From Cynocephalus volans (lineage: Eukaryota > Chordata > Mammalia > Dermoptera > Cynocephalidae): DNA of 64,000 nt. The notes under the pieces were generated by a model. The model was given only the letters and a program-made list of their open reading frames with translations. It was not told the DNA's origin and made no database searches. Positions 22,166 to 63,940 of the stretch are shown in pieces. Within the stretch, counting starts at the first letter, position 1. Each line of letters opens with the position of its first letter. Location of the stretch: positions 42,386,407 to 42,450,406 of the forward strand of contig NC_084463.1 in NCBI RefSeq assembly GCF_027409185.1, written 5' to 3'. Both the position numbers and the translations under genes were made by a program.

Positions 22166-25060
<2,895 letters not shown>

Positions 25061-27926: not shown

Positions 27927-29980
27927 GGCCTGAGCTTCTTGCTCCTTCTCGTCCGGGATGCTACTGCAGCTGCTGCAGACCAGTTGCTTACCTTCCTCCT
28001 CTCTCGGCAGTGGCGGTGGCGACCACGGCGCGTGGAGCCAGTGGGTGGCACAGCTGCAGCTTGGAGCCCGTGGGACGCCAGGGCCTCTGGGGGGTGGACC
28101 GGGGGTGGAGGTGGCCTGGGCGCGAGCTTCCCGGCGCTGTTGGGTGGCCAGGCCCGCCCGAGGAAGCAGGCCCCCAAGGCAGGCTGACTTCAAGCTGCAG
28201 ATCATCATCATGGGCTCCCGCGGCATGGGCAAGACCAGCCTGATGGAGCGCTGCAGCGATGATACCTTCTGCGAGGCCTTCCGCGAAGCCTGCAAGTCCA
28301 CCGTGGGTGTTGACTTTAAAATCAAAACTGTAGAGCTAAGAGGAAAGAAAATTAGATTACAGATCTGGAACACAGAGGGTCAGGAGAGATTCAACAGCAC
28401 TACCTCAGCTTATTACAGCAGTGCCAAGGGAATATTAGTACGTGATATCACAAAGGAAACATTTGATGATTTGCCAAAATGGATGAACATGATTGATAAA
28501 TATGCTTCAGAAGATGCAGAACTTCTCTTACTTGGAAATAAGTTGGACTGTGAAATGGACAGAGAAATCACCAGACAGCACAGTGAAAAGTCTGCACAGC
28601 AGATCACAGGCATGCCATTCTGTGAAGCACGTGCCAAGGATAACTCCAACGTGAAGGAGTATTTCTGAAACTCATCGATGACATTCTGAAAAAAAATGCC
28701 TCTGGATATTTTAAGAAATGAGTTGTCCAATAGCATCCTCTCATTACAACAAGAGCCCGAAATGTCCCCAGAACTGCCTCCACCATCACATGTTGGGTGC
28801 TGTTGATTTGCTACTTTGGAGACAAAGTGGAAACAATTCCTGGGAGAGAGGAAAGTTCTATTCTGCACTACAATCATTTTGAGAATTTCTTTTCCCACTT
28901 TGTAATCCAAGTCAGAGCTAGACATAACTTGTAAATGCGCAAAGATGCAATCCTGGGTAATTTTTGTTTCTTTTTGTTTTTTAAAAGACGTGACTGGTAA
29001 GGGAATCTTAACCCTTGACTTTGTTGTCAGCACCACTGTCTGCCAAGTGAGCCATGGGCCGGCCCAAGTTTTGGTTTTAAATTACATATTTCCCTCCAAA
29101 TTATTACATTTCATTCATCACCCCAGTGTCTAGTGTACATACACTGGGAAACTCAGTACTTCTAATATGAAGAGTGGGAGAAATAGAAGATATAACGATT
29201 CTTGAAATAAATAATAGTCCTTGTTAATCATATTATCAGGACAGAAGATACTCTGAAAAGAGAACATGGTGCTCTGCTTATTGTTCTAAAAAAATTTTGT
29301 GATAATAAAGAATTTTTGGGAAAAAAGCTATCTTAAGTGCTTTTTCTTTATTCACAATATATTATCCCCAGCAGTAGCATCTTTGAAGTATTGGAGTATT
29401 TCTGCCACCAAGCACAGTTTCATTCACAGCCATCACTGAAGATTATTTATTAATATGATGTAATAGTAGAATATTACTAGTTAGAGGGATGGATTTGACT
29501 TGGTCCTAAAGCCCAGAATCTCTCTCACTGGTCCTAATGGAGGTACCCTATGCTTTTAGGAACTACAAAGATTCAAAAAAGAAAGAGGTTTTTGAAACTA
29601 TAGAAAAAGATTTTCAAGTTTTAAGGAAATATACTTTGCTATATCAAAAAACATACATGTATTTGCCTAAACATTCTGTACATTTGTAATGATAAAGTTT
29701 CTCCCCTTTACGGTGAAGCTTATTCCTATTAAGTCTAGACTGTGTTCAGTTTTTTTGGGGGGGGGGTAAAAGGAGAGGTCTGATAACAAATTTGTAAACT
29801 CTATCTTTGGTATATCTTTTATGAAACTGCACTGTTTTGTGTAGTCAAGGTAAATAAGTAACTATGTATTTGAATACCTTGGTGTTTCTCAAGTATTGTG
29901 GTATGAAGCATTGTGGTCTTTCTACACTAACAAGTGCAAATAAAATTTTGTATTTCTGAAAAAAAAGAAAAAAGAAAAAG
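27927..29980 (+). pseudogene. RAB12: RAB12 processed pseudogene
   Basis: An intronless copy of the RAB12 small GTPase mRNA with 5'UTR-like GC-rich leader, coding remnant, about 1.2 kb of 3'UTR, AATAAA at about 29939, a poly-A tail (29959-29980) and 14-bp target-site duplications. Coding similarity is strong: [20 protein letters not shown] (P-loop), [31 protein letters not shown], and the prenylated C-terminus ending HVGCC. It is dead: no ATG at the homologous start, a frameshift before ADFKLQ, a 12-bp duplication (FCEAFREAC), and stops after the KEYF segment. The switch II DTAGQE motif reads NTEGQE. It is inserted in an L1 ORF2 and later received a SINE at about 28965-29066. Confidence 0.95.
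28965..29066 (-). mobile_element. tRNA-Ile-derived SINE (CYN-type), antisense
   Basis: The minus strand reads gggccggcccatggctcacttggcagacag..., then caaagtcaagggttaagattcccttaccagtcacgtctttt, the colugo-type SINE including its typical tail. It sits in the 3'UTR part of the RAB12 retrocopy, so it is younger than that insertion. Confidence 0.88.
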
Positions 29981-29994: not shown

Positions 29995-32065
29995 CACCAA
30001 TTCCCTTCCAACTATTCCAAAAAGGTGAAATAGATGCTATTCTCAAAAAATCATTCTATGATGCCAGCATCATTTTGACACTAAAACCAGAAAAACATGC
30101 AGCAGAAAAAGAAAACAGGCCAATACCTCTGATGAACAAAAAGACCCAAAAATCATCAACAAAATGCTACCCATCAGAATACAGCAACACATAAAAAAAA
30201 TTATACAGCATGACCAAGTGGGATTCATCCCAGAGTGACAAGGATGGTTCCACATATACAAGTCTATAAATGTGATAAACCATAGCAACAAAAACAGAGA
30301 CAAAAACCATATGATTATCTCAATGTGTGCAGAAAACATTTGACAAAATTCAACATCCCTTCATGATAACGGATCTCAGTAAATTGGGTATATAAGGAGA
30401 GTATCTCAATACAACAAACCCACTGCCAGTAAAAGCCATATACAACAAACCCACCACCAATATCATTCTGAATGGGGAAAAGCTAAAAGATTTTTGCTTA
30501 ATAACAGGAACAAGGAAAGGATGCCCACTCTCACCACTCCTATTTAACAGAGCATTAGAATTAGCCAGAGCAATCAAGTAAGAGAAAGCAATAAAGGGCA
30601 TCCAGACTGGAAAACATGAAGTCAAACTGGCCCTGTTGGCAGATGACATGATCATATATATAGGAAAACCTAAGGACTCTACCATAAACTCTCAAAGCTA
30701 ATTAACAATTTCAGTAATGTGCAGGATACAAAATCAACACCCCAAAATCAGTAGCATTTTTATTATCCAATAATGAACTAGCAGAAAAATAAATTAAGTA
30801 AACCTATTCTCAATAGTCACCAAGAAAATAAAATACCTAGGAATCAGTTCCACCGAGGTTAAAGATCTCTACAGAAAAGAAACTACAAATCACTATTGAA
30901 AGATATTAAAGATAACACAAAATTGTGCAGTCATTCCATGCTCTTAGAAGAAACAACGTTGTAAAAATGTCCATAATAGCCAAAGTGATCTTCAGATTCA
31001 ATGCAATCCGCATCGAATATGAAAAACATTCTTCATAGAAATAGAAAAACAAACAAACAAAAAACCCCAAAAAACCCCAAAACCCTGACAGTCTTATTGA
31101 ACAATAAAAGATCCCGGATAGCCAAAACAATCATGAGCTAAATAAATAAAGCAGGTGGCATAACACTACCTAACTTCAAATTACACTATAAATCTCTAGC
31201 AGCCAAAACAGCAGGATACTGCCATAAAAATAGACACTTGGACCAAAGGAACAGAATAGAGAACCCAGAAATCAACACACACATGCTTACAAGTCAACTG
31301 ATCTTTCACAAACGCACCAAGAACATACATTAAAGAAAATACCACCTATTCAATAAATGGTGCTGGGAAAACTGGACATCCATATGTAAAAGAAACTAGA
31401 CTCATAAATCTTGCCACATACCAAAACAACTCAAAATTCATTAAAGACTTAAATACCTGTTTTGAAAATATAAAACTACTAAAACAAAACACAGGGAAAC
31501 ATTTCAAAAAGTAGGAGTGAGCAAAGACTTTATGAATAAGACCCCCAAAGCACAACCATTAAGAGAAAAACGTAAATTCATTGTATTATAACATAACTAA
31601 AAAGATTCTGCACAGCAAATAAATCAACAGTAAAAAAGCCTACAAAATGGGAGAAACAATTTGCTAACTATACATCTGACACGGTATTAATATCCACAAT
31701 ATACAATAAACTCTTAAATACACGTTAAAGAAAAAAACCAAATAACCTGGTTCAAAAATGAGCAAATGAGCAGAAACACTTTTTTAAAGGAAGACATACA
31801 AATCCAACAGGTACTTCAAACAATGCTCAATCAACATCACTTATTTAGGAAATGCAAATTAAAACCATGTTGAAATATCATCTCAGCCCAATTAAATGGA
31901 TTATGATAAAAAAGAATATAAAATGCCAGGGAGTATGCAGAGAAATGGGTACTCTTCTACACCGTTGTGGGACTACAAATAAGTACAGCCACTACGGGAC
32001 GCAGTATAGAGGTTTATCAAATAGTTACAGATAGATTTAACACAGGATTCAGTAATCCCACATCT

Positions 32066-33045
32066 GGGTACGCCCCGGCCCGCCGCTCTCCGCTGCTCGC
32101 CGCAGGGATGGGAGAAGCCGGCGGTACCCCGATACCAGCGCCCCCGCCCGCCACTCTCCACGCCCTGGCCCGCCGCTCTCCGCTGCTCGGCACAGGGATG
32201 GGAGAAGCCGGCGGTACCACGAAACCGACACCCAGGCCCGCCGCTCTCCACGCCCTGGCCCGCCGCTTTCTGCAGGAATGGGAGAAGCCACCGGTATCCG
32301 ATACCGGCGCCCCCGCCCGCAGCTCTACACGCCCCGGCCCGCCGCTCTCCGCTACTCGGCGCAGGGATAGGAGAAGCCAGCGGTACCCTGACACCGGCGC
32401 CCCGGGCCCGACGCTCTCCATGCCCCGGCCCGCCGCTGTCAAGGATCCGGCCCGCCGCTCTCCTCTGCTCGGCGCAGGGATGGGAGAAGCCAGCGGTACC
32501 ACGATACCGGCGCACCGGCCCGCCACTCTCCACACCCGGACCGCCGCTCTCCATGCTGGGGCCGCCGCTCTCCACGCCCTGGCCCGCCTCTCTCTGCTGC
32601 TCGGCGCAGGAATGGGAGAAGCCGGTGGTACCCCGATACCGGTGCCCAAGACCCGACACTCTTCACGACCTGGCCCGCCGCTTTCCGCAGGGATGGCAGA
32701 AGCCGGCGGTATCCTGATACCGGCACCCCGGCCCACCGCTCTCCACGCCCGGACACGCCGCTCTCCGCTGCTCGGCTCAGGGATGGGACAAGCCAGCGGT
32801 ACCCCGAAACCAGCGCCCCAGACCCAACGCTCTTCATGACCTGGCCCGCCGCTTTCCGCAGGGATGGGAAGAGCCGGCGGTACCCCAATACCGGTGCCCC
32901 GGCCCGCCGCTCTCCATGCCCGGGCCCCGTCGTTCTCCGCTACTCAGTGCAGGGATGGGAGAAGCCGGCGGTACCCCGACACCGGCGCCCCGGGCCTATC
33001 GCTCTCCACGCCCGGGCCCTCCGCTCTCCACACCACGGGGCTCAC
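32066..33045. repeat. GC-rich minisatellite, alternating 81- and 89-bp units, about 10 copies
   Basis: The block 'agggatgggagaagccggcggtacc' recurs at about 32103, 32192, 32273, 32362, 32474, 32608, 32689, 32778, 32859 and 32949. Spacings are mostly 81 or 89-90 bp, with two longer ones (112, 134). The 8-bp difference is the presence or absence of a 'ctgctcgg' block. Units are CpG-rich (cccgccgctctcc). The repeat is open in several frames: the plus-strand ORF 31967-32839 and minus-strand ORFs to 240 residues (repeats of SGYRRLLPSLRRAAESGGPGR type) are by-products. It begins exactly where L1 sequence ends. Confidence 0.9.
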
Positions 33046-33470
33046 AATAAACGGGGAGACTCACCAGGCCTGAGACGTCCAAAGAGAACGGAGAAGCGCG
33101 TGGACCCAGCAAAGTTCTCCACCTCGGGGGTACCTGCATCTCTTCTTCGGACACATCTGCGGACCAGCTTTTCCCGTTGGGTTTCTCAACTTCTTGTCCT
33201 GGAACTGGCGAAGACACCTCGGGGAAACCAGCACAGACGAGCGAAAACCAGACACAGTCCATCTTTCAAACCAGCTCCGCAGAAAAGAAAATGCCGAGTG
33301 TGGGCTTGCTCGGCCCATTTATAGACTCTGTATTCAAATGAGGGCTCCTGGAAGACGCGATCTGATTGAACCGTGTAGACAAGCCCTGATTGGATAGTTT
33401 CACTGCGTTACCAACCAATCAGAAAACAAAAGGTGAAGAGGCTCCACCAAGGGTACTTTCAGTTTGGGTG
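33046..33470 (-). promoter_or_regulatory. Histone-style promoter-like sequence with a first-exon-like segment
   Basis: On the minus strand, inverted and direct CCAAT elements (33415-33419 plus strand; 33389-33393 minus; a further ATTGA at 33364-33369) precede ATTTGAAT (33332-33339), one base from the octamer ATTTGCAT, and TATAAAT (33317-33323). The spacing CCAAT...octamer...TATA is that of H2B-type promoters. Downstream there is no histone ORF. Instead a short open stretch (MDCVWFSLVCAGFPEV... from 33262) runs to a possible donor GATGCAG|GTACCC at 33134/33133. I cannot name a gene. It may be a captured promoter, the promoter of an unrecognised transcript running into the minisatellite, or an LTR-like sequence. 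Confidence 0.45.
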
Positions 33471-34774: not shown

Positions 34775-34935
34775 CGTCCTTGTCCCTCTGGACACCCCCC
34801 CCAGTCTCTGACAAAGGCCCACCTTGTCCCCCTGGACACCCCCTCCATGGTTTCTGACTCTGACCCACCTTGTACTCCTGGATGCTCCCTTCCCAGTCTC
34901 TGATGGGGGCCACCTTGTCCCTAGACACTTGTACT
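34775..34935. repeat. Short tandem repeat spanning the TRIM17 exon/intron border
   Basis: On the minus strand, imperfect units of about 50-55 bp of the form 'ccaggagtacaaggtgggtcagagtcagaaaccat...gggggtgt' repeat roughly three times, beginning at the end of the TRIM17 exon. Each unit re-creates a donor-like acaag|gtggg sequence. Confidence 0.6.
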
Positions 34936-35356
34936 CCTGCACGGCCACCCCGGCGGGCACCACCATATGCAGCCAGTGCTTCTGCGACTCCCTGCAGACC
35001 ACGCAGATGGGGCTCTGGTCCTCCTGGCAGAAGATCTTGAGGGGCTCCTGGTGCACCTGGCACAGGTCCCGCTTCTGGAGGCCCAGGTGCTGGCGTGCCA
35101 TCTCGGCCACCTTGGTGAGCAGGCGGTTGGACCGCACGTTCCACTGCGGGGACATCTCCCTGCACTCCGGGAAGGGGAAGGAGCCCTTCTGCTTCCTCTG
35201 CCCCTTCTTGCCTTTTGCCTTCTCCCAGCTTAGGCAGATGCAGTCACGGCAGAAGTTGTGGCCACAGGAGGTCATCATGGGGTCCCTGAAATAGTCCAGG
35301 CAGATGGAGCAAGTGGCTTCCTCTTGCAGCTTTCTGGCAAGTTCCACAGCATCCAT
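34929..35356 (-). pseudogene. TRIM17: TRIM17 first coding exon (RING + B-box2), probably orphaned
   Basis: The ATG at 35356 opens [20 protein letters not shown], followed by CGHNFCRDC and, after a basic insert ([13 protein letters not shown]), [11 protein letters not shown]. Then comes a B-box2 with ligands C99, H102, C110, D113, C118, C121, H127 and H130. This matches TRIM17 (an E3 ubiquitin ligase of neurons and mitotic cells) over its whole first coding exon, which ends VQ-x-YK as here (donor TACAA|GTGTCT). The 428-bp frame is open. The RING ligand Cys62 is phenylalanine (human FPCPEC, here FPFPEC), which should cripple zinc binding. No coiled-coil or PRY-SPRY exon is found to the left; an old L1 lies there instead. 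I infer decay of the locus, but remaining exons could lie beyond the window. Confidence 0.75.
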
Positions 35357-36879: not shown

Positions 36880-37985
36880 GACTGCACACATTCGGAGTCT
36901 GTCCCCTGGGAACTTGATCAGCGCTTCCTGCGCCCTAGCTCTTGGCGTCAGCTCTCTCCCTGGTCCTCAGGGTTGGGGGACGCTGTCTACGCGGACAGAA
37001 GCCAGGGATGGGGAGCGTCCAGTGAGCTGGGGGTCTGACTCAGTCTGGGCAGAGGTTGTCATCAGGGCTCTGGTCACCTTCGGTCCCGGGGATGTTCCTT
37101 TGTTAATGCCGGGCTCATCCAGGTGACAGCGGGGCCTGAGTGTCCACGGTTCCCACGTATCACCCTCTGCAGGGACAGGACGGCCGGAAGGGGCGGGAAG
37201 GCGCCGCCGTTAGAAGGCGGGGGTGGACCCGGGGTCCTGACCCAGAGGCCGCAGGAGGGTGGCCTGCAGGGCCTGTACTCACAGGGAGGTGGCCCTCGCA
37301 CCACGCCAGGCGTCCGGGGCTGATCGGCGATGGCTGGGCCGCGGGGGACTTTGTGGCGTCAGCTGGGTCAGGGTGGGGGAGGGGAGGAGAGTGGAGGAGC
37401 CTCGGCGTCCTGGGACAGCCGGGAGTGGGGCCGCCTTGTCCTGGGCAGGGGGATGGACAGGAGGTTTGCTGGTGGGGGAGGGGCTGGGGGACAAGGGAGG
37501 AAAGGGGGCGGCAGCCTGTCCGCTGTGTTTGGGGTGAGTCGTTGGGAGGGGAAGGGGGTCCCTGTGGAGGGGGCGGGAGAGGGCGCCCCCGTGGGCGGTG
37601 GGTGAAGGGGGTCGGGGGGACAGGCGGCAGCGAGCAGGGGCGGGTGCCCCCCTGGGAGGGTGAAGCGGGTCACCGGGGGTAGCGATCCCCCAACTCTCCC
37701 GGGCATCGTCGGCGTCGGTCCGGGGTTGAAGAGAGGGGGCGTCCGGCTTAGGCGGAGACGGTGGGCGGGGCAGGCCGGGCTGCGGGGAGGCGACAGGTAG
37801 GTCCGGTCCCCTGGGGCGGGGCGGGGGACGTTACCAAGCCCCGAAATGCCGCCCCCCAACCCTGACCAACCCGTGTCCGAGTCCTGGGGTTGAGCGGACA
37901 GACGAGGAAACTGAGGCTCCGGCCACGCGTGGGGTGTGGGGAAGCGAGCAGGAGAGCAGAAGGCCTTGAAGGCTGAGCAGCACCT
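36880..37985. promoter_or_regulatory. GC-rich, CpG-containing island
   Basis: G-rich sequence with many CpGs and GGGCGG/GGGGCGG-type Sp1-like sites (for example near 37573 and 37815). It is a plausible CpG-island promoter for TRIM17 (about 2 kb upstream of its first coding exon) or for an unseen transcript. There is no TATA or recognisable exon. Long ORFs on both strands follow from GC richness. Confidence 0.45.
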
Positions 37986-37994
37986 TTCTGCCAC

Positions 37995-38560
37995 CTCCTG
38001 GGGGTGCGAGTATGGACGGCCTGGCTGCAGGTGTGGATGGCCGGCTCCGGGTGTAGACGGCCTGGCTGCGGGTGCGGATGTCCGGATCCGGGTGTAGACG
38101 GCCTGGCTGCGGGTGCGGATGGCCGGCTCCGGGTGTAGACGGCCTGGCCGCGGGTGCGGACGGCCGGCTCCGGGTGCGGACGGCCTGGCCGCGGGTGCGG
38201 ATGGCCGGCCCCGGGTGTGGACGGCCTGGCCGCGGGTGCGGATGGCCGGCTCTGGGTGTAGACGGCCTGGCCGCGGGTGTGGATGGCCGGCTCCGGGTGT
38301 AGACGGCCTGGCTGCGGGTGTGGATGGCCGGCTCTGGGTGTAGACGGCCTGGCTGCAGGTGCGGATGGCCGGCCCTGGGTGTAGACGGCCTGGCTGCAGG
38401 TGTGGATGGCCGGCTCTGGGTGTAGACGGCCTGGCTGCAGGTGTGGATGGCCGGCCCTGGGTGTAGACGGCCTGGCTGCAGGTGTGGATGGCCGGCTCTG
38501 GGTGTAGATGGCCTGGCTGCAGGTGTAGGCGGCCTGGCTCCCGGTGTAGACGACTGGCTT
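37995..38560. repeat. GC-rich minisatellite with 41-bp units, about 13 copies
   Basis: Units of 41 bp built from 'ggcctggctgcaggtgtggatggc' and 'cggctctgggtgtagac' repeat with few changes. CpG variants (ccgcgggtgcgg) cluster at the left and TpG/CpA versions (gcaggtgtgg) at the right. 41 is not a multiple of 3, so all frames interleave and long minus-strand Pro/Thr/Ala-rich ORFs (for example 37748-38686) appear. I reject these as genes. Confidence 0.93.
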
Positions 38561-39269
38561 TCCCCGGGCTTCCCGGCTGGAGCTTTTCCGTGGTCTCTCC
38601 TCACTAAACACACGAGGACGGGGTCTGGCCTTCGATTCCGTGTGGCCCGGAGGGTGCGGGTGGTGGGCGCGCACAGTTCTCTGCATGAGCGAACAACTGC
38701 TGTTAATTCTACTTTACCAACCCCCCTCCCGGTCCCGGAACCCTCTCTGCTGTTTACATCAATGGGGGAATGTGGCCTGAGGGTTTCCTTCAGTGTAGAA
38801 AGTACAATCAGGATTAAAAAACAACAAGGAAAAAACCTTTAATGAATAATTTCAAGCAGTTGCACCCAAGACAACAGGACAATGAACTCCATAAATAAAC
38901 AATCCAAATGAGCATTTTACTGCATTTTCTTCATCTGCTCTGTTGTTTTGTCTTGACTGAAGGGTTTTCTTTTTCTAAAAGCAAATCCCAGACATCAGTA
39001 GTTTCACTTCTAGAAGTTTCATCAGTGTCTTACCGATAGTCAAGGCTTTGCCTACCCAACGCAATTGACAGTAATTCCTGTTTTTTTCTGACCTCTGATT
39101 CCTGTTCAGATTTCACCTATTACCTAAAACGTGCGTGTTTAAAAAGTTGGTTTGTTTGAGTCAGGATCCTAACACGGTTTTGAGGTCTTTTAAGACTTAC
39201 ATTAGTATTGTTTCTCTTTTCTTTTTCTTATTCTTTTTTCTTCATCTTTTTCTACTTCATCTTTTTAAT

Positions 39270-50560: not shown

Positions 50561-52330
50561 TCTGAGGCTGTCTCTGTAGCATTCAGGGGCTCACAGAATT
50601 CAGTAAAAGGGGAACAAATGTCTACACTTCAGCTTACTATTCCCACATGAGTAGGACCGGCAGGACAGCAACAAAGGCCCCAGTCCTAATTGTAATAGTT
50701 TCATAGTTTTATAAAAATGATTCAAATTTTCCAGGTGGGACTAAATTGGTTCTCATGACAAACACTTGAAAGCAATTAACTTAAAAACATTCAAGCAATT
50801 GTTTCCTACCACAGAGGGCAGCATTACTTGTCCTGTATTTAGAAGCTATTTCCTGAGCGACCCCAGTTATATCACAAGGGGGAGAACCTGAGCCTCTCCT
50901 CAGTGCTCTCTCCTCTTCCAGCTTTTCTCAAGTCATCTTATCTCTGCACCACCAAGTTGGTGGCATGGTATCTGGAGAGTGAGAAGGCATCCCCATGGGG
51001 CCCAGTTGGTGCATCCCTGTCCTTGGCCACCCTGCCCAGTTCTCAGCACGTCTCTCCAGCTTTGGGTCCACATGGTTTTGAGTCAAGGATTCACATGGGA
51101 CCTGACATGTATGTTGCCTGCAAACCCCTGGACGCAAAACCCTTGCTGGGCTTTATCAGTCCTGCTGCGCTTCCTGGACAGGTCCATTTCTTTCTGCTCA
51201 GAATTAACAGTGCCTAGTGCAGAGCTGTGCCCCTTCCGCACAGACAGTCCTGGGGATGTAACACAAATGTGTGTGTTGGAAAGGCTTCCTTGAGTACTAT
51301 ATTAGTCTGCTTCTATTTATAACAGTCTCTGCGTACTGTTTTCTGGCCAGCCCTCCAAGGATTTGTCATCAGCTTACGTACATTCTAAAAGTGGAGATTT
51401 TCAATTGTGTGCGTACTCATTTAGTTGCTATAGCGTTTGAATTGAGTCAGCAGGATACAAGCTGGGCTCAGAGGCTTCCAAATCCCACTATTGCATTCTG
51501 AGAGCCTCTTACTCACACCCCTTGCTATTCATAAGAGCACTTTTTACTATCATTGCTTCTACATGCAATACAAGCCTCCTTCACTCAACTGTAAGCCCCT
51601 GGAAAACCGAGTGGCCAGTGACAGTAGGGAATGGATTTTACTCTGTGTTCTCAGCACCAGACAGTGCCTGGCTTCCATTAATTTAATAAAGCCTTTAGTG
51701 AACAACTGTAATTTGTACCAAAGAAAGAAAATTCTTACATCCGTATCCTTACAGCCACTCAAGTTATCCCGACCTAAACTCCACTACTGGGTTCCTGGCT
51801 AACCACCCTGGTGACAGGATTTCTCCTCAAATTGATTCCTCGCCCCTCGTCCCCAGATTATCAGTCTACTTTGCAGGTCTGGGAAGCCTGTTCCAACGTG
51901 CCGGGATGTGGGCCATCCATGCCAGACACTGCTCAGGAAGTTAACTACCGAGTAGAGCGCCTCCTTCCACTTACGCTGTTAACATGTGACTCTGGACTTC
52001 TGGCCTAACTGGAGATGGCCTGAAAACACACGCCTCTAACCAGCCCCACAGCACATGGGCCAAGTTAACAATAAACCCCACTCACTAGTCTTCCAACCTA
52101 ATTGGCACTAAGCCGAGTTAGCGCGCCTAACTAGGCTGCCGTCTGAACAGACGCTCCAGTTAGTGCGGACAACTAGCGGGGCTCGTAACCTAACTGGCAT
52201 CGGGCTGAGTTACCACAAACACCTCATTAGGTTTATTACCTACCTAAACGGTAAGCGAACAAAGGGGACAGAACCGGCACCGACCGCCAGAAGAAGCCCC
52301 TTGGACGCCCGGAAACCCGCCATGTTACAG
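50561..52330. other. No gene recognised; downstream flank of the H3 gene
   Basis: ORFs at 50903-51293 and 51491-51802 have no known similarity. 52085-52240 contains two imperfect copies about 92 bp apart of a segment with 'aacctaattggcactaagccgagttagc' / 'aacctaactggcatcgggctgagttac', rich in aactag/aactgg words. Function unknown. Confidence 0.4.
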
Positions 52331-52352
52331 CCACTGTTTGTACCAAACGGGT

Positions 52353-52368
52353 GGCTCTGAACAGAGCC
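52353..52368 (-). promoter_or_regulatory. Histone mRNA 3' stem-loop (SLBP site)
   Basis: On the minus strand GGCTCTGTTCAGAGCC, in the flanking context CCAAAGGCTCT...AGAGCCACCC usual for replication-dependent histone genes. The 6-bp stem (GGCTCT/AGAGCC) is perfect. The loop is GTTC where TTTC is usual, a change at the first loop base. It begins 39 nt after the H3 stop codon, a normal distance. A clear purine-rich U7 element downstream is not obvious to me. Confidence 0.9.
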
Positions 52369-52407
52369 TTTGGAGTGACAGGACCTCAGGGCGACCGCCC
52401 GTGGAGC

Positions 52408-52818
52408 CTAGACCGGCTTCCCGCGGAGGCGGCGCGCCAGCTGCATGTCTCTGAGCATGATGGTGACACGCTTGGCGTGGATGGCGCACAGGTTGGTGTC
52501 CTCAAACAGCCCCACCAAGTAGGACTCGCAGGCCTCCTGGAGCGCCATCATAGCCGACATCTGAAAGCGCAGGTCGGTCTTGAAATCCTGCGCGACCTCT
52601 CGCACCAGCCGCTGGAACGGCAGTTTGCGGACCAGCAGGGCGCTGGATTTCTGGTAGCGGCGAATCTCGCGCAGCGCCACCGAGCCGGGCCGATAGCGGT
52701 ACGGCTTCATCACGCCGCCGGTGGCCGGGGCGCTCTTGCGGGCTACCTTCGCGGCCAGCTGCTTCCGCGGCGCCTTGCCGCCGGTCGACTTCCGCGCCCT
52801 TTGCTTGGTGCGAGCCAT
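52408..52818 (-). CDS. H3-4: Replication-dependent histone H3, H3t/H3.4 ortholog, with Met at position 36
   Basis: An intact, intronless 136-codon ORF encodes a nucleosome core histone H3: [20 protein letters not shown]..., then [20 protein letters not shown], and [19 protein letters not shown]. Val24 and Ser98 are hallmarks of human H3t (H3.4, testis), though human Met71 and Val111 are V and A here. Neighbouring TRIM17 in the same order and strand as on human 1q42 supports H3-4 orthology. The sequence is very divergent for an H3: T6R, T22A, K36M, H39Y, T45S, T58S, E59A, I62V, I74V, S86M, V89M, P121L, K122R, I124M, I130L and a KPV C-terminus for ERA. Lys4, 9, 14, 18, 23, 27, 56 and 79 remain. 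No stop or frameshift. It is either a fast-evolving germline variant or a young, still-open pseudogene. Confidence 0.93.
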
Positions 52819-52960
52819 GACCACGACGTGGCTCCCGCTGTCTCCGCTCCCGACTGGCACTGAGCAGCTCAGCGCTCTCGCTTTTATAGAGCCCGCAGCG
52901 CTCCCATTGGTTGGCCGCCGGGTGGCGCGACGGCAGGCTATGCTCTGATTGGCTCTTAAG
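52819..52960 (-). promoter_or_regulatory. Histone H3 gene promoter: two CCAAT boxes and TATA
   Basis: On the minus strand: AGCCAATCAGAG (CCAAT at 52948-52952), AACCAATGGGAG (CCAAT at 52906-52910), then CTATAAAAGCG (TATA at 52882-52889), about 65 bases before the ATG. This is the standard layout of a replication-dependent H3 promoter (NF-Y sites plus TATA) and looks intact. The start site should fall around 52855, giving a short leader. Confidence 0.9.
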
Positions 52961-53152
52961 GCGCTCATGCACTGGGTCCCTGGGCAGGCCCCGAGGTGCT
53001 GGCATGATGTGCCTGGTTTCACCAAAAGAACTTCAATAAGCTTTTATGGCACTGCAATTAGAGGAACATTAACCCATAACATGCAACAAAAATGATTTTG
53101 CTTTTTGGAACTATTTAACAAATAAATTTGACATTACAATTAACAGCAACAT

Positions 53153-53332
53153 ACTGTTGTTTTTTTTTTTAAAGATGACTGGTAAGGGGATCTTAACCCT
53201 TGACTTGGTGTTTGTCCTCAGCACCACGCTCTCCCAAGTGAGCTAACCGGCCATCCCTATATAGAGATCCGAAGCTGTGGCCTTGGTGTTATCAGCACCA
53301 CACTCTCCCAAGTGAGCCACGGGCTGGCCCCA
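53153..53332 (-). mobile_element. tRNA-Ile-derived SINE dimer (CYN-type), antisense
   Basis: Poly-T, then aaagatgactggtaaggggatcttaacccttgacttggtg..., a middle linker 'ccatccctatatagagatccg', and a second monomer ending ...agccacgggctggccc. Same dimer structure as 42925-43129. It lies 0.2 kb upstream of the H3 promoter. Confidence 0.92.
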
Positions 53333-56447: not shown

Positions 56448-58049
56448 CTAGGAGAAACTCTGAGCTTTTCCATCTGGGGATGAATCTCCAGGACCATGCT
56501 CTGGGGCTGGGATGAGCCAGCCCTCAGCAGGGAAGACATAGGCCGCCTGGGTGGCCATGGCATATAAGGTCTGCACTGCAGTGCACAGAGACCCCCAGAG
56601 CTGGGCAAGATCAGAGAACTGCTCCCTGGTCAACGGAGAATGGATTTGCTGGGCCTGTACCTGAGCTATGTCTTGATAAATGACCTCACACATAGCACGC
56701 AGGAAGGTCACCAGGCTTTTCCGAAGTGGTGGTGGGTGGTGTCTTAGGGACCCAAATCTTCGCTTCTTGCTGTGCCCAGTGTGGGCCCCCTGCAATTCCC
56801 AACTGTGGATGTCATAGGTCTCCTCAATTTTCCTGAAGTTCACAGGGTCAGAGGCCTTTGGTTTCTTTTCTGAAGTCAAGCTGTGCTCATCTCCTAGACA
56901 GTTCCCTGGGGAGGAAGCAAGGGAGTGAGAGACTTGCCAGAAAAGTCTCCACAGACCTCATTCCCGGGATCTCACCGTGCACCTTCAGGTGAACTCCACT
57001 TGTCTCTCCTCCTCCTTCCTGACCTTCTGAGTCTCCATAATGAAATGAGGCTGAGCTCCTCATAGGTACCAAAACACTCTCTGAGTCCCAGGATCTCTAA
57101 GACCCTCTCAGACGCTGAGAAACATCCTTTCTGCCCAAGCCCTGTATAAGTTTCCTGCTGGTCTGCTCTCAGGACAAAAAAGGACCTACCTGTTCCATCT
57201 TGGCAACTGTCCTTGGAACTGATTTTCCTCTTCCTGGACTTCCTCCCATCTGAGCTGGACTCAGATTCTGTGGATAATTGAGAGTTTGAGGGAGTGCCTA
57301 CAGCTGAACACCTTAGCAACCCTGGTCCATCCTGGACACACAAGCAGCTGAGGCTGCACCCAAAACTCAGTGCTCTTTCATTCTCGAGTCCAGGATCTGT
57401 AAGGCCCGGCCTGCCAAGAGCTCCCAATTCCATGCCCAGGGGAAACTGTGTTAACCCATCCCCTGTCCCTTTCCCTCCCTGAGAAAATCAAATCTTACCT
57501 GATCTGTCAATGCTGTTTCCAGCGTTAAGCTCAGTTTCCTTGGAATTCTCCTTCTCGTTCAGATTAAGTTCTGGTCCTAGAGGAAAAGGGAGCTTAGGTG
57601 ACTGGCTCCTCTTAGGTCCTCAGAGCCCCCTAGTCTGTTCCCGATCTGTATTTGTGGGTCATTCTCTCAACCAAGGCCGTTCAGTCAATGTCAAGTGTAA
57701 ATGGGAAGAATACGCTTCCAAGGGATAATTGTCACATTTCTCAAGGCCCCTGGAGAGTGATGACTCCTTTCCCAAGCCCAGTCTCAAAGTTAAACTCTAC
57801 CAAAGAAACATCCTCACTGTCCCTGAGTCTACCTTCCTTCCAGCCTCCACATGGACAGCTCGAGTCCGTACCTCGCCTCTGGGTGCAGTTCTCACTGGAA
57901 TGTAAAGACAGAGTCTTGTGTTTCTCTTCAGATGGTTTCTCCTCCTCCTCTGAGCCACTTTCTTTAAAGGAGAGTTGTTGGAAAGAAGGCTGGTCAGTGC
58001 AGTGCTGGAGGGAGCAGTGAGGTTCTGCTTCTTCCGTTCCCGACTCCAT
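56448..58049 (-). CDS. FRG2: FRG2-family gene, four exons, complete
   Basis: Minus-strand exons 58049-57872 (178 bp), 57576-57499 (78), 57267-57190 (78) and 56905-56448 (458) all have GT/AG borders and all introns are phase 1. Joined, they total 792 bp, a 263-residue protein without interruption; human FRG2 is about 278. Matches are clear: HCSLQHCTDQPSFQQLSF (exon 1), NEKENSKETELNAGNS (exon 2), RKRKISSKDSCQD (exon 3), then RKSLVT-x-LRAM, YQDIAQVQAQQIHSPLT and QTLYAMATQAAYVFPAE-x-W in exon 4. The biochemical role is unknown; in humans it is a subtelomeric FSHD-region gene switched on by DUX4. Exons 2-3 give a basic, nuclear-signal-like RKSRKRK. The C-terminus is shorter than human. The 5'UTR and promoter were not identified; no TATA upstream. 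Intact frame and splice sites argue for a functional gene. Confidence 0.93.
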
Positions 58050-60975: not shown

Positions 60976-63940
60976 AATCCTATTTGCAAGAGCTTTCCTT
61001 TTTCAACTCTTGATGTCTTTTTTAGTTGTCGTTCCATAGATCACTGGCTGTTTATACTCCCTACAAGCATGTACAAGATGGTGTGTTTTTACTGATTGTA
61101 ACAAACCAACAAACAAAAACAGCATTAGGAAATGTTTTCTTTTTCAAACTGATGTTCACACAAAACACATATATTTTGTAATTTACTTTTTTCAATCATA
61201 AAGTTGAATTGCTTCTTTAAGTAAAATATGATCATTTGTGTTTCTATACTGAGTTTGTTTTTATTCTTCTTTGAGAGGAGTTTCCAATATGTTTTATTTT
61301 ATATCATCTCTCCCACATCACCTTAGCAGGCTGATGCCAGTTTATACATCCAAGAATACACCTGTCTTGGATCTGATCTCACAGGCCAGCCACCTGTCAC
61401 GAAACCTGAGATGAGATCCATTTACCTGGCAAAGCCTCAACCAAGTCGTGTACTGGGTTCTCAGCTCAGGGAGAGCTGAAGGATGGGGGGGTGGATTTGT
61501 TGATTGGCCCCATGCTGTACCCAAGCACTTTAGTCAGAACCCAACCCTCATTGCCAGGCTGACAGCCAACAAAACTCATGATGTTCACCAGCCTGCCACC
61601 AAGACACCTGTCCTGAGCCACCTGTTCTTCAGTCTCTGGCACAAGGCTATGCTGATATGGATGCAAACCCAGCTCTCTGCCTGCCAAGCATAAATGTGGC
61701 CGACTCCACACTGAGCATTCAGGTACCAAGCAACGGGTCTTCCCAGGTTCCCAATCAGACTTTCTAGAATTTCCCAAAGATATTAAGACTCAGCCCTTTC
61801 AAGATCCCCCCACCCCCCCACCCCCCCAAAATTAGAAACAAGACCTGGGAGCCATCCAGACTTTCCTGTCTCCTCCCTAGTAAAAATAGACTTTGACCCA
61901 ACCAGACACCCTAATTGGCCACAGAACACCAGCCCAGATGCTGAGCATTAACCTCCTGTCTCCCCACAGAAGACCTCACCTGAGTCTTATCAAAGCCTAC
62001 ACTGTTCCCCAAGCTTCACTGTCCAGACATGTTCCAGAACAATCCCTCGGAACTGTCTTTATGAGATGGGACAAGGCATGGTGGGGCTCCAGGTTCAGAA
62101 CAGCTGCCTCATCCTCCCTCCTTAGAAGTCTCTACCTACTGGTCAGAATCCTCACATCTTACAGGGCTAAGCCCATGTCCCAGTAAGTGTCCCCTAAAAG
62201 AGCCTTCTGGTGTCCTCCTACTCTGAGGAGAGTGCCCAGGAATAAGAGCCTCTACTGTAGGGAACACTCGGCTTTCACTCTCTCATGACTTGGCTGCTGC
62301 CTGAGGAGGGAAAAGCTATGCAGGGAACAGCCTGTGTCTGACACATCAGAGTTTCCCCAGATGTGGTGACTGTGCAGACTGTGAAACCCTACATAATGCC
62401 TGCGAGGGGTAGACACGCAGACATTTCCTAACTAAAGTACATCAATTTAAGTTGAATTTAAATAAAACATTATAATGCCATATAAAATTATTTTTATATT
62501 AGTTGATTTTATAAGACAACTGAGTTAAAATTTGCAACAGCATTAAAATATAATGTTTATAAGAAGCTATGAAAAACATCTATAATTAGTGTGTAAATGA
62601 CTGAATTTTGGGTAACTGTAAAATTCACCTATGGGTGTAAAAGACATCTGTTACTTACTTTACAAGACATCTACAATTGGTCGTCCACATCACTGGGCAC
62701 CAGATTTGAGGATTCAACCAACTGCAGATCAAAAATACCCCCAAATCAGTAAAAATTATAATCCACCAATAAAAGTGGTAGAAATTTTTTAAAAATACAT
62801 CTGGCAACTATTTTCATAGAATTTACATTCTACTCGGTATTATATGTAACCTAGAGATGATTTAAAGTATAAGGGAGGATGTGTTTAGGTTATATGCAAA
62901 CACTACCCATTTAATGTACGGTACTTGAGTATCCCTGGATTTTAGTCGCTACAAGGGTCCTGAAACCAATTTCCTGCAGACGCCAAGGAATGACTGTACT
63001 GCATATTGTAAGTGCCTTTTCTTCCATGGAGTGCCAGAGTGGTGATAACGTGTTAGAAACTCCTGTGTTTTCCAGCATAAGTCCCCATCCTCTGAGAGTC
63101 CTGAGAAAGACAGCAGATTGGTCCTGGAGTCCTTATGAAAGGAGGGGGTGGTTTCATTGGGTGTAGTATGTGCGACTCAAAACCTGGGCGTGGAGGCAGA
63201 GCAATACCAGGCGGGGTGTGTGGGGGGTGTGGGCAATGTCCACCAGAGCTGGAGGATCACGTGGGGGTATGTTGGAGTTTTAAGGGACTTCTGCTGCTGC
63301 AGGTGGAAAAAAAGGCTCCTGGCAGTCATAGAACAGGTTCTAGCTTCATCCAAGAGGCTACAGTTTCATTCTTTCCTTTTTCTTTTCCTCTGGCTGCTTG
63401 AAATATTTCTCATTTCACATTGAGTCTGTGGTCATTAATAATCAACTCATTAATTAATCAGCAGCCACTTCTGCAGCCTGCCTTGTTGCAAACTGGGTGA
63501 GAACACACTGCTGTCTCTGTACAACAGTGATGATCGAATTCTCTCTGAACTCAGTAATTGTAATGCCCGGATTACCAACATCTACTGTGGTGATAATCTT
63601 GACCTCTCGTGGGTCCAGACAAGGCACGGTCAAAGCTCACTTTAAAAGATTGTCTGCAAAATGGTCATCGATTCCAAAATATTGGCCTTTAGTATTCTGA
63701 TCACCAAAGGTATCACCTGCATCTGTAGGCTTCTCATGTCTGCAAGGACCCTTCTCTTCTCTCTTGCACTTTCCTCTCACCCAGAGGGAGCAAATGTGGG
63801 GCCAATTCTTTTTTACAGTAGAATGCGGTCCGGGACAGCCTGAGCAGCCTGTCACAGGTGGATGTGGCTTTCCCCAGCACATCAATTGGCTGTGTTCCAT
63901 CAATAAGAAATCTCTTCCTTCATATTCTGTGTGTGTTTCT
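60976..63940. other. No gene recognised
   Basis: Mostly unique-looking sequence. A C-run lies at 61806-61828. 62650-63000 contains 'gtcgtccacatcactgggcaccagatttgaggattcaaccaactgcagatcaaaa', a well-known old mammalian DNA-transposon-like repeat phrase (Tigger/MER-like), family not fixed. ORFs at 61342-61777 and 63135-63423 lack known similarity. Confidence 0.4.

Follow-up and report, generated by a model that had tools for sequence, protein, structure and literature searches.

A multi-copy family of H3-4-derived histone genes with methionine at position 36 in the colugo Cynocephalus volans

The histone gene and its neighborhood

The window analyzed here, a 64-kb stretch of the Cynocephalus volans genome (C4:42386407-42450406, C4 being the contig that bears it), contains an intronless histone H3 gene on its reverse strand. 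As claimed in the initial annotation, the frame is whole, with 136 codons and a stop, and it encodes methionine at residue 36 (ATG at 52710-52708). Descent from H3.4/H3t, which had also been proposed, is borne out by the translation of 52408-52818, in which Val24, Cys96, and Ser98 accompany Met36 and Tyr39. The residues around Met36 (G33, G34, V35, K37, and P38) are all kept. When the protein is matched to solved structures, the closest chain is 5b1l, named H3t, followed by 7e8d, an H3.1 chain aligned with Met36. The features on which the analysis rests are listed below in window coordinates.

52408..52818, reverse strand: H3.4-like coding sequence, 136 aa plus stop, by translation (copy L001, subfamily A; C4:42438817-42439224)
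52708..52710, reverse strand: codon 36, ATG (Met), from the sequence and the codon table; AAG (Lys) in the native gene, L011
52699..52701, reverse strand: codon 39, TAC (Tyr); CAC (His) in the native gene; the second fixed amino-acid difference, in 24 of 24 copies
52881..52952, reverse strand: core promoter, with two CCAAT boxes (-134 and -92) and TATAAAAG (-70)
52353..52368, reverse strand: histone 3' stem-loop with a perfect stem and the loop GTTC (Rfam match at 52327-52373)
52320..52334, reverse strand: candidate U7-pairing downstream element, GTGGCTGTAACATGG, from the sequence
51801..53200, no strand: CpG-rich stretch around the gene (observed/expected CpG of 1.05 in the coding sequence, against a window median of 0.23)
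34646/34928..35356, reverse strand: copy of TRIM17 exon 1, open, the co-amplified comparison gene
57744..58049, reverse strand: co-amplified open reading frame, presumably FRG2-like; no Pfam match
56975-57433, reverse strand: second FRG2-like frame; Pfam FRG2 at 24.0 bits, below the cut-off of 27

The gene thus resembles H3-4/H3t (HIST3H3), the H3 of eutherian spermatogenesis, in its three lineage residues, in lacking introns, in its CCAAT/TATA boxes and candidate stem-loop (perfect stem, altered loop), and in lying ~17 kb from a TRIM17 exon 1. In contrast to H3-4/H3t, it belongs to a multi-copy family with Met36 and Tyr39, and this duplicate sits outside the native HIST3 cluster. Elsewhere in the window, other CpG-rich stretches are found at ~32001-33200 and ~37401-38600, an open Rab-like GTPase frame that is perhaps an intronless retrocopy lies at 27958-28668 on the forward strand (Pfam Ras, 133.7 bits), and a KRAB box exon (85.3 bits) lies in the same duplicated region at 23401-23790 on the reverse strand.

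Several parts of this neighborhood are repeated along C4. A 601-bp segment 2.8 kb from the H3 gene has 23 copies, the window's included, in addition to the native one, and TRIM17 exon 1 has 19 duplicates (window included, three of them truncated) and a native copy. Three TRIM17 exon-1 copies, at C4:47.97, 48.97, and 49.32 Mb, have no H3 gene nearby. The open reading frame at 57744-58049, which we take to be FRG2-like, occurs in seven copies within C4:42.4-48.3 Mb, one of them in two pieces and one in the window. Two further 601-bp pieces of the window also recur at high identity, 62000-62600 in 7 places and 12400-13000 on C4, whole at 3 sites and partial at 16. The region is a patchwork of segmental duplications, and the H3 gene may be a passenger of these. 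The truncated TRIM17 RING/B-box frame may itself be expressed. Weaker TRIM17 exon-1 matches are numerous at C15:146.5-148.0 Mb and at C4:57-66 and 83-86 Mb, which suggests large TRIM arrays.

Met36 duplicates and the native H3-4 gene

Searching the 2.81-Gb assembly with the window protein, and reading every locus retained, we identified 25 H3.4-type genes across C4:39.9-50.9 Mb; the same search found canonical H3 genes on C10 and C13, and copies resembling H3.3 in other places. One of the 25, L011 (C4:50874339-50874740, forward strand), encodes Lys36, His39, and Thr45. The other 24 all encode Met36 (ATG) and Tyr39 in a frame that is open from ATG to stop. These counts are lower bounds, giving at least 24 Met36 duplicates over ~11 Mb.

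L011 lies in the native HIST3 cluster (C4:50.84-50.90 Mb), some distance from the window at C4:42.39-42.45 Mb. This cluster is autosomal in other mammals, and in the colugo it sits on C4. On the upstream side, of which 10 kb was read, an H2A gene, an H2B gene, and another frame resembling H2B lie within 32 kb of L011; TRIM17 exon 1 lies 17 kb downstream, followed by another TRIM-like frame. The arrangement of HIST3 with TRIM11/17, H2A, and H2B is what defines H3-4 orthologues (PMC13396413). Within the 64-kb window, TRIM17 exon 1 is present, and neither H2A, H2B, nor other TRIM17 exons were found, which makes the window gene a paralogue. The orthologue of H3-4, which the initial annotation had equated with the window gene, is instead the Lys36 gene L011. 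Window homology to the native locus ends at 52970, ~150 bp upstream of the ATG; farther upstream, subfamily A sequence differs from the native one, and subfamilies B and C resemble it further up. L011 itself shows 10 residue differences from tree-shrew H3.1t, many for a histone H3, which indicates that native H3-4 is also evolving fast.

The 23 other Met36 copies share 79-98.5% protein identity with the window copy and fall with it into three subfamilies. Subfamily A comprises 13 copies of 136 aa, including the window copy. Subfamily B consists of five copies of 129-130 aa (L038, L030, L035, L032, and L036, at C4:42.69, 43.77, 44.49, 48.38, and 50.17 Mb, respectively), in which seven codons of the histone-fold region are gone in frame, an internal deletion of seven residues that leaves the open frame, Met36, and Tyr39 in place. 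The six copies of subfamily C are 137 aa long, and their changes include R8W, K9N, and K27Q. Given the deletion and substitutions like L65P, neither B nor C seems suited to serve as a nucleosomal histone. Since these damaged subfamilies nevertheless retain Met36, its presence alone is a sign of descent only. Within the motif, V35, M36, K37, and P38 are invariant across the 24 copies, and G34 is found in 23.

Ten residues distinguish the window copy from L011. The coding differences that separate L011 from all 24 copies number just three, namely K36M, H39Y, and, in codon 41, a silent change. They lie within 17 bp, and both amino-acid changes fall inside the methyltransferase-binding motif. Aligned sequence 3' of the stop codon holds 27 further fixed differences. 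A single founder event, or a short series, would be the simplest account of the fixed changes.

Could the family be an artefact of assembly or annotation? Dense segmental duplication is prone to misassembly, and a few B and C copies are near-identical to each other. However, most copies are several per cent apart, and three annotated NCBI proteins of C. volans (P0041, P0137, and P0212) are identical to loci L003, L032, and L028. Moreover, an error at codon 36, a check raised in the initial annotation, is very unlikely as an isolated base-call mistake since ATG is found there in 24 copies at separate chromosome positions. We regard an artefact as extremely improbable. The 97%-identical protein P0041 had seemed to make Met36 common to two colugo genera, an idea that was rejected since P0041 is L003, from the same genome.

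Subfamily A could instead be read as an extra dose of H3.4-like histone for germ cells, Met36 being tolerated or incidental. All its copies are full length with promoter and 3' elements kept, the MARTKQ start is retained in 7 of 13, and 10 of 13 have Val24, a residue that promotes spermatogenesis in mice (PMC13396413). However, subfamily A changes include T80P, R53C, L70Q, and V89R, which are ill-suited to a nucleosomal H3 under dosage selection, and among six canonical H3.1 copies of this genome there is not one amino-acid difference. An extra-dose function is, on this evidence, quite improbable.

Regulatory elements and constraint on the copies

As for the control sequences, the native gene and all 24 copies have both CCAAT boxes and TATAAA. 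Every one of the 24 copies also has a perfect stem in its 3' stem-loop; the loop of 22 copies is TTTC or TTTA, that of the window copy GTTC, and that of L004 TTTG. The downstream GTGGCTGTAA element, like GTGGCTGTAACATGG in the window a putative site that we take to be U7-pairing, is retained in 23 of 24. Rfam was run on 18 loci, with one B and two C copies among them, and the Histone3 threshold is reached by 14: 11 of the 13 A copies, the native L011, the B copy L030, and the canonical L015. L004, both C copies tested, and the window copy fall short of it, the last with 30.3 bits where the gathering score is 34. Passages of PMC10388802 make no mention of the loop base. The stem-loop zone of subfamily A changes at 0.26 per site, no slower than the downstream flank at 0.13-0.25.

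CpG islands are likewise retained, with an observed/expected ratio of 1.02-1.12 among the 24 copies. In subfamily A, the ratio of change at CpG to that at other C/G sites is 0.79 in the island versus 3.20 in the downstream flank; the corresponding values are 1.5 versus 3.7 in C, and 1.6 versus 1.6, no contrast, in B. Because their island CpGs are undecayed, subfamily A promoters appear to have been unmethylated in the germ line since duplication, which fits activity. However, CpG islands can be protected without transcription. Judging from these elements, subfamily A looks still transcribable as a replication-dependent histone gene.

The reading frames of the 24 copies look maintained. None contains a stop, whereas ~3.9 stop-making changes would be expected at the fourfold rate (P ~0.02). 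There are no coding frameshifts; the coding sequence has just two gap runs, both in frame (3 and 21 bases), and the downstream sequence has 48. TRIM17 exon 1, which was duplicated along with the H3 gene, provides the comparison. One stop is common to 4 of its 15 full-length duplicates, with ~4.5-4.7 stop-making changes expected, and all three truncated copies contain stops. It shows no gaps at all across 16 full-length matches, native included, so indels do not decide whether the frame is under constraint.

Nei-Gojobori (NG86) dN/dS is 0.51 inside subfamily A, 0.93 inside B, and 0.48 inside C, 0.61 for A versus native, and 1.03 for A versus C. By codon model (GY), omega for A plus native is 0.24 with F3X4 and 0.58 with equal frequencies, with omega = 1 rejected in each case (2dlnL of 36.3 and 5.8, kappa held), and 0.22 on a searched tree; for all 25 H3 genes it is 0.34 and 0.76, depending on the frequency model. 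TRIM17 exon 1 gives 0.20 and 0.58 (omega = 1: 2dlnL of 36.9 and 4.8) in a comparison of 15 duplicates and the native copy from which L054, nearly full, and the three truncated copies were excluded, stops being masked. We rejected dN/dS as proof of function since omega varies with the codon model and TRIM17 exon 1 behaves alike. The dN/dS check suggested in the initial annotation has thus a divided outcome: a ratio of non-degenerate to fourfold change of 1.2 speaks for neutral amino-acid change, and the rejection of omega = 1 for A plus native speaks against it, although TRIM17 exon 1 gives the same rejection.

Changes at non-degenerate relative to fourfold sites have a ratio of 1.21 in the 25 H3 genes, 1.16 in A plus native, and 0.51 in TRIM17 exon 1, values that are imprecise because they rest on 13 changes at 38 fourfold sites for H3 and 11 at 41 for TRIM17 exon 1. 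Per-site change across the 25 genes is 0.43 at the first, 0.43 at the second, and 0.50 at the third codon position, compared with 0.56-0.71 in the downstream flank, 0.27 in the promoter core, and 1.04 in the 5' leader. In subfamily A, the three positions change at 0.17, 0.16, and 0.24, with flanks at 0.13-0.37. The protein is thus at most weakly constrained, no more than the co-duplicated TRIM17 fragment, whose own protein change is slower than that of the H3 copies by the first ratio. The strong purifying selection typical of H3-4 (dN/dS ~0.02) is not seen in the window family.

Nor does the Met36 peptide stand out. Residues 29-43 have 7 changes in 15 codons, which is not significantly cold (P = 0.15), and the minima of a conservation scan lie outside these residues and are not significant. 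Selection on this peptide alone was therefore rejected as unsupported. The 18 changes between the window copy and tree-shrew H3.1t favor conservative ones (P 0.000-0.005). We dropped purifying selection on the copies as a reading of this result, since the comparison mixes the native gene's own ten differences with those that arose after duplication and allows no inference for the copies.

The copies might simply be dead, that is, silent pseudogenes that are open through youth alone. This is a sub-case of the passenger explanation favored below, and the likelihoods of the two overlap. The NG86 values of 0.48-0.93 are near the published 0.46 of H3-4 pseudogenes and far from the 0.024 of coding H3-4, figures obtained by a different method and to be used as a guide only (PMC13396413), and the damage in B and C and the changed loop base in the window copy point the same way. 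Relaxed amino-acid change at an H3-4-derived gene is also what the colugo family shares with the H3-4 pseudogenes of cats, dogs, gorilla, and New World monkeys. However, those are truncated, frameshifted, or lost, whereas the colugo duplicates are open in 24 of 24 cases and the native gene survives. Zero stops, protected CpG islands in subfamily A, and unchanged promoter boxes also speak against dead genes, which we consider a possible account, albeit a doubtful one. The relaxed, dying gene that the initial annotation offered as its alternative comes near the substitution patterns, and yet the boxes, stem-loops, and CpG islands that are kept mean that the copies are not plainly dead.

Predicted properties and probable origin of the K36M copies

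The SETD2 enzyme is trapped when K36M occupies its active site, and a G34R or P38V substitution lifts this block (PMC5335568). The window copy holds the sequence that a K36M inhibitor requires, Met36 with G34 and P38 kept. An N39 side chain was seen to make no specific contact with SETD2 (PMC7495481). NSD2 recognizes chiefly the residues from G33 to P38, and simulations place H39 in a side pocket (PMC11162472). Since all five residues flanking Met36 from G33 to P38 are kept, any window-copy protein that is made should act as a K36M histone. Its contact with NSD2 may be altered by Tyr39, given the placement of H39 in the NSD2 pocket. Its likeness to the H3K36M oncohistone of chondroblastoma, a SETD2/NSD2 trap, lies in Met36 within the G-V-M-K-P context. 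Unlike the oncohistone, the colugo form is germline and inherited, and its predicted protein is of the H3.4 type, with Tyr39, and departs from tree-shrew H3.1t at 18 positions.

EZHIP mimics H3K27M. It provides a parallel in the way of working only, as a eutherian, fast-evolving inhibitor of a histone methyltransferase complex that is expressed mostly in germ cells (PMC6710278). EZHIP differs in being a non-histone, in targeting PRC2 instead of H3K36 enzymes, and in having a demonstrated function. With this precedent, subfamily A might form a functional germline K36M system that is made in spermatogonia from promoters of the H3-4 type and traps SETD2/NSD2, causing a stage-specific drop in H3K36 methylation. 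This would fit the retention of Met36, open frames, and promoter boxes in 24 of 24 copies, of an ordinary stem-loop in 22, and of undecayed island CpGs in subfamily A. It would also fit the near-complete conservation of the motif, in which mutation of G34 or P38 relieves inhibition (PMC5335568), and the lack of any specific SETD2 contact seen for an Asn39 side chain (PMC7495481). However, the Met36 peptide lacks significant excess conservation, constraint is no stronger than in TRIM17 exon 1, the A stem-loop zone is no slower than its flank, Met36 persists in the damaged B and C copies too, so that its presence alone shows descent only, and Tyr39 may change the NSD2 pocket contact (PMC11162472). 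We consider such a system rather unlikely. The wider proposal that tens of H3.4-derived K36M histones with protected CpG-island promoters are spermatogonial and, alongside an intact Lys36 H3.4, tune or antagonize H3K36 methylation by SETD2, NSD, or PRDM9 seems to us unlikely too.

The explanation that we favor, and hold to be probable, is that the copies are passengers of segmental duplication derived from one K36M founder, with Met36 incidental and expression at most low. A duplicate of H3-4 would have acquired K36M, H39Y, and the silent codon 41 change. Its spread would then have been driven by an unstable duplicating segment (TRIM17 exon 1, H3, the FRG2-like frame, and more) and not by selection for Met36, and the protein of the copies would have drifted afterward under little constraint. 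In its favor are the single Lys36 gene in a native cluster next to 24 Met36 copies, the co-amplified flanks, the weak constraint on the protein, the retention of Met36 in the damaged subfamilies B and C, and the Met36 peptide that is not significantly cold. Several observations pull against the passenger explanation: the absence of stops where ~3.9 were expected; omega below 1 for A plus native, although TRIM17 exon 1 is similar; the promoter boxes and perfect stems of all 24 copies, and the slow promoter core of the 25 genes (0.27 versus 0.56-0.71 downstream); the undecayed island CpGs of subfamily A; the location of both fixed amino-acid differences in the methyltransferase-binding motif; slower change at codon positions 1 and 2 than at 3 in subfamily A; and the lack of frameshifts, although TRIM17 exon 1 has no gaps either.

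A copy that is translated would be unmethylatable at position 36 and should be able to trap SETD2 and NSD2 through their active sites. How large the effect is would depend on the share of the copy protein in total H3. Loss of NSD1 from mouse germ cells leads to male sterility (reviewed in PMC8465848), so abundant expression of the copies should carry a cost if it is neither limited to one stage nor tuned. Most likely, the copy protein makes up little or none of the H3 of living animals, since widespread depletion of H3K36 methylation from male germ cells should do harm.

Among the matches listed from the open-licence literature, colugo histones and genomes included, none is a natural mammalian K36M histone. 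A 2026 survey treats H3-4 as a single gene (PMC13396413), and its main text makes no mention of K36, colugo, Galeopterus, or Dermoptera. What is new is therefore a multi-copy H3-4 family with K36M in every copy found and a native Lys36 gene beside it. K36M is known from engineered cells and from human tumors, in which it poisons methyltransferases, and two dozen open germline K36M genes are a natural test of how far an animal tolerates it and of its evolutionary use. If silent, the copies would illustrate how a dominant-acting histone change spreads safely by segmental duplication; if expressed, they would be the H3K36 counterpart of EZHIP.
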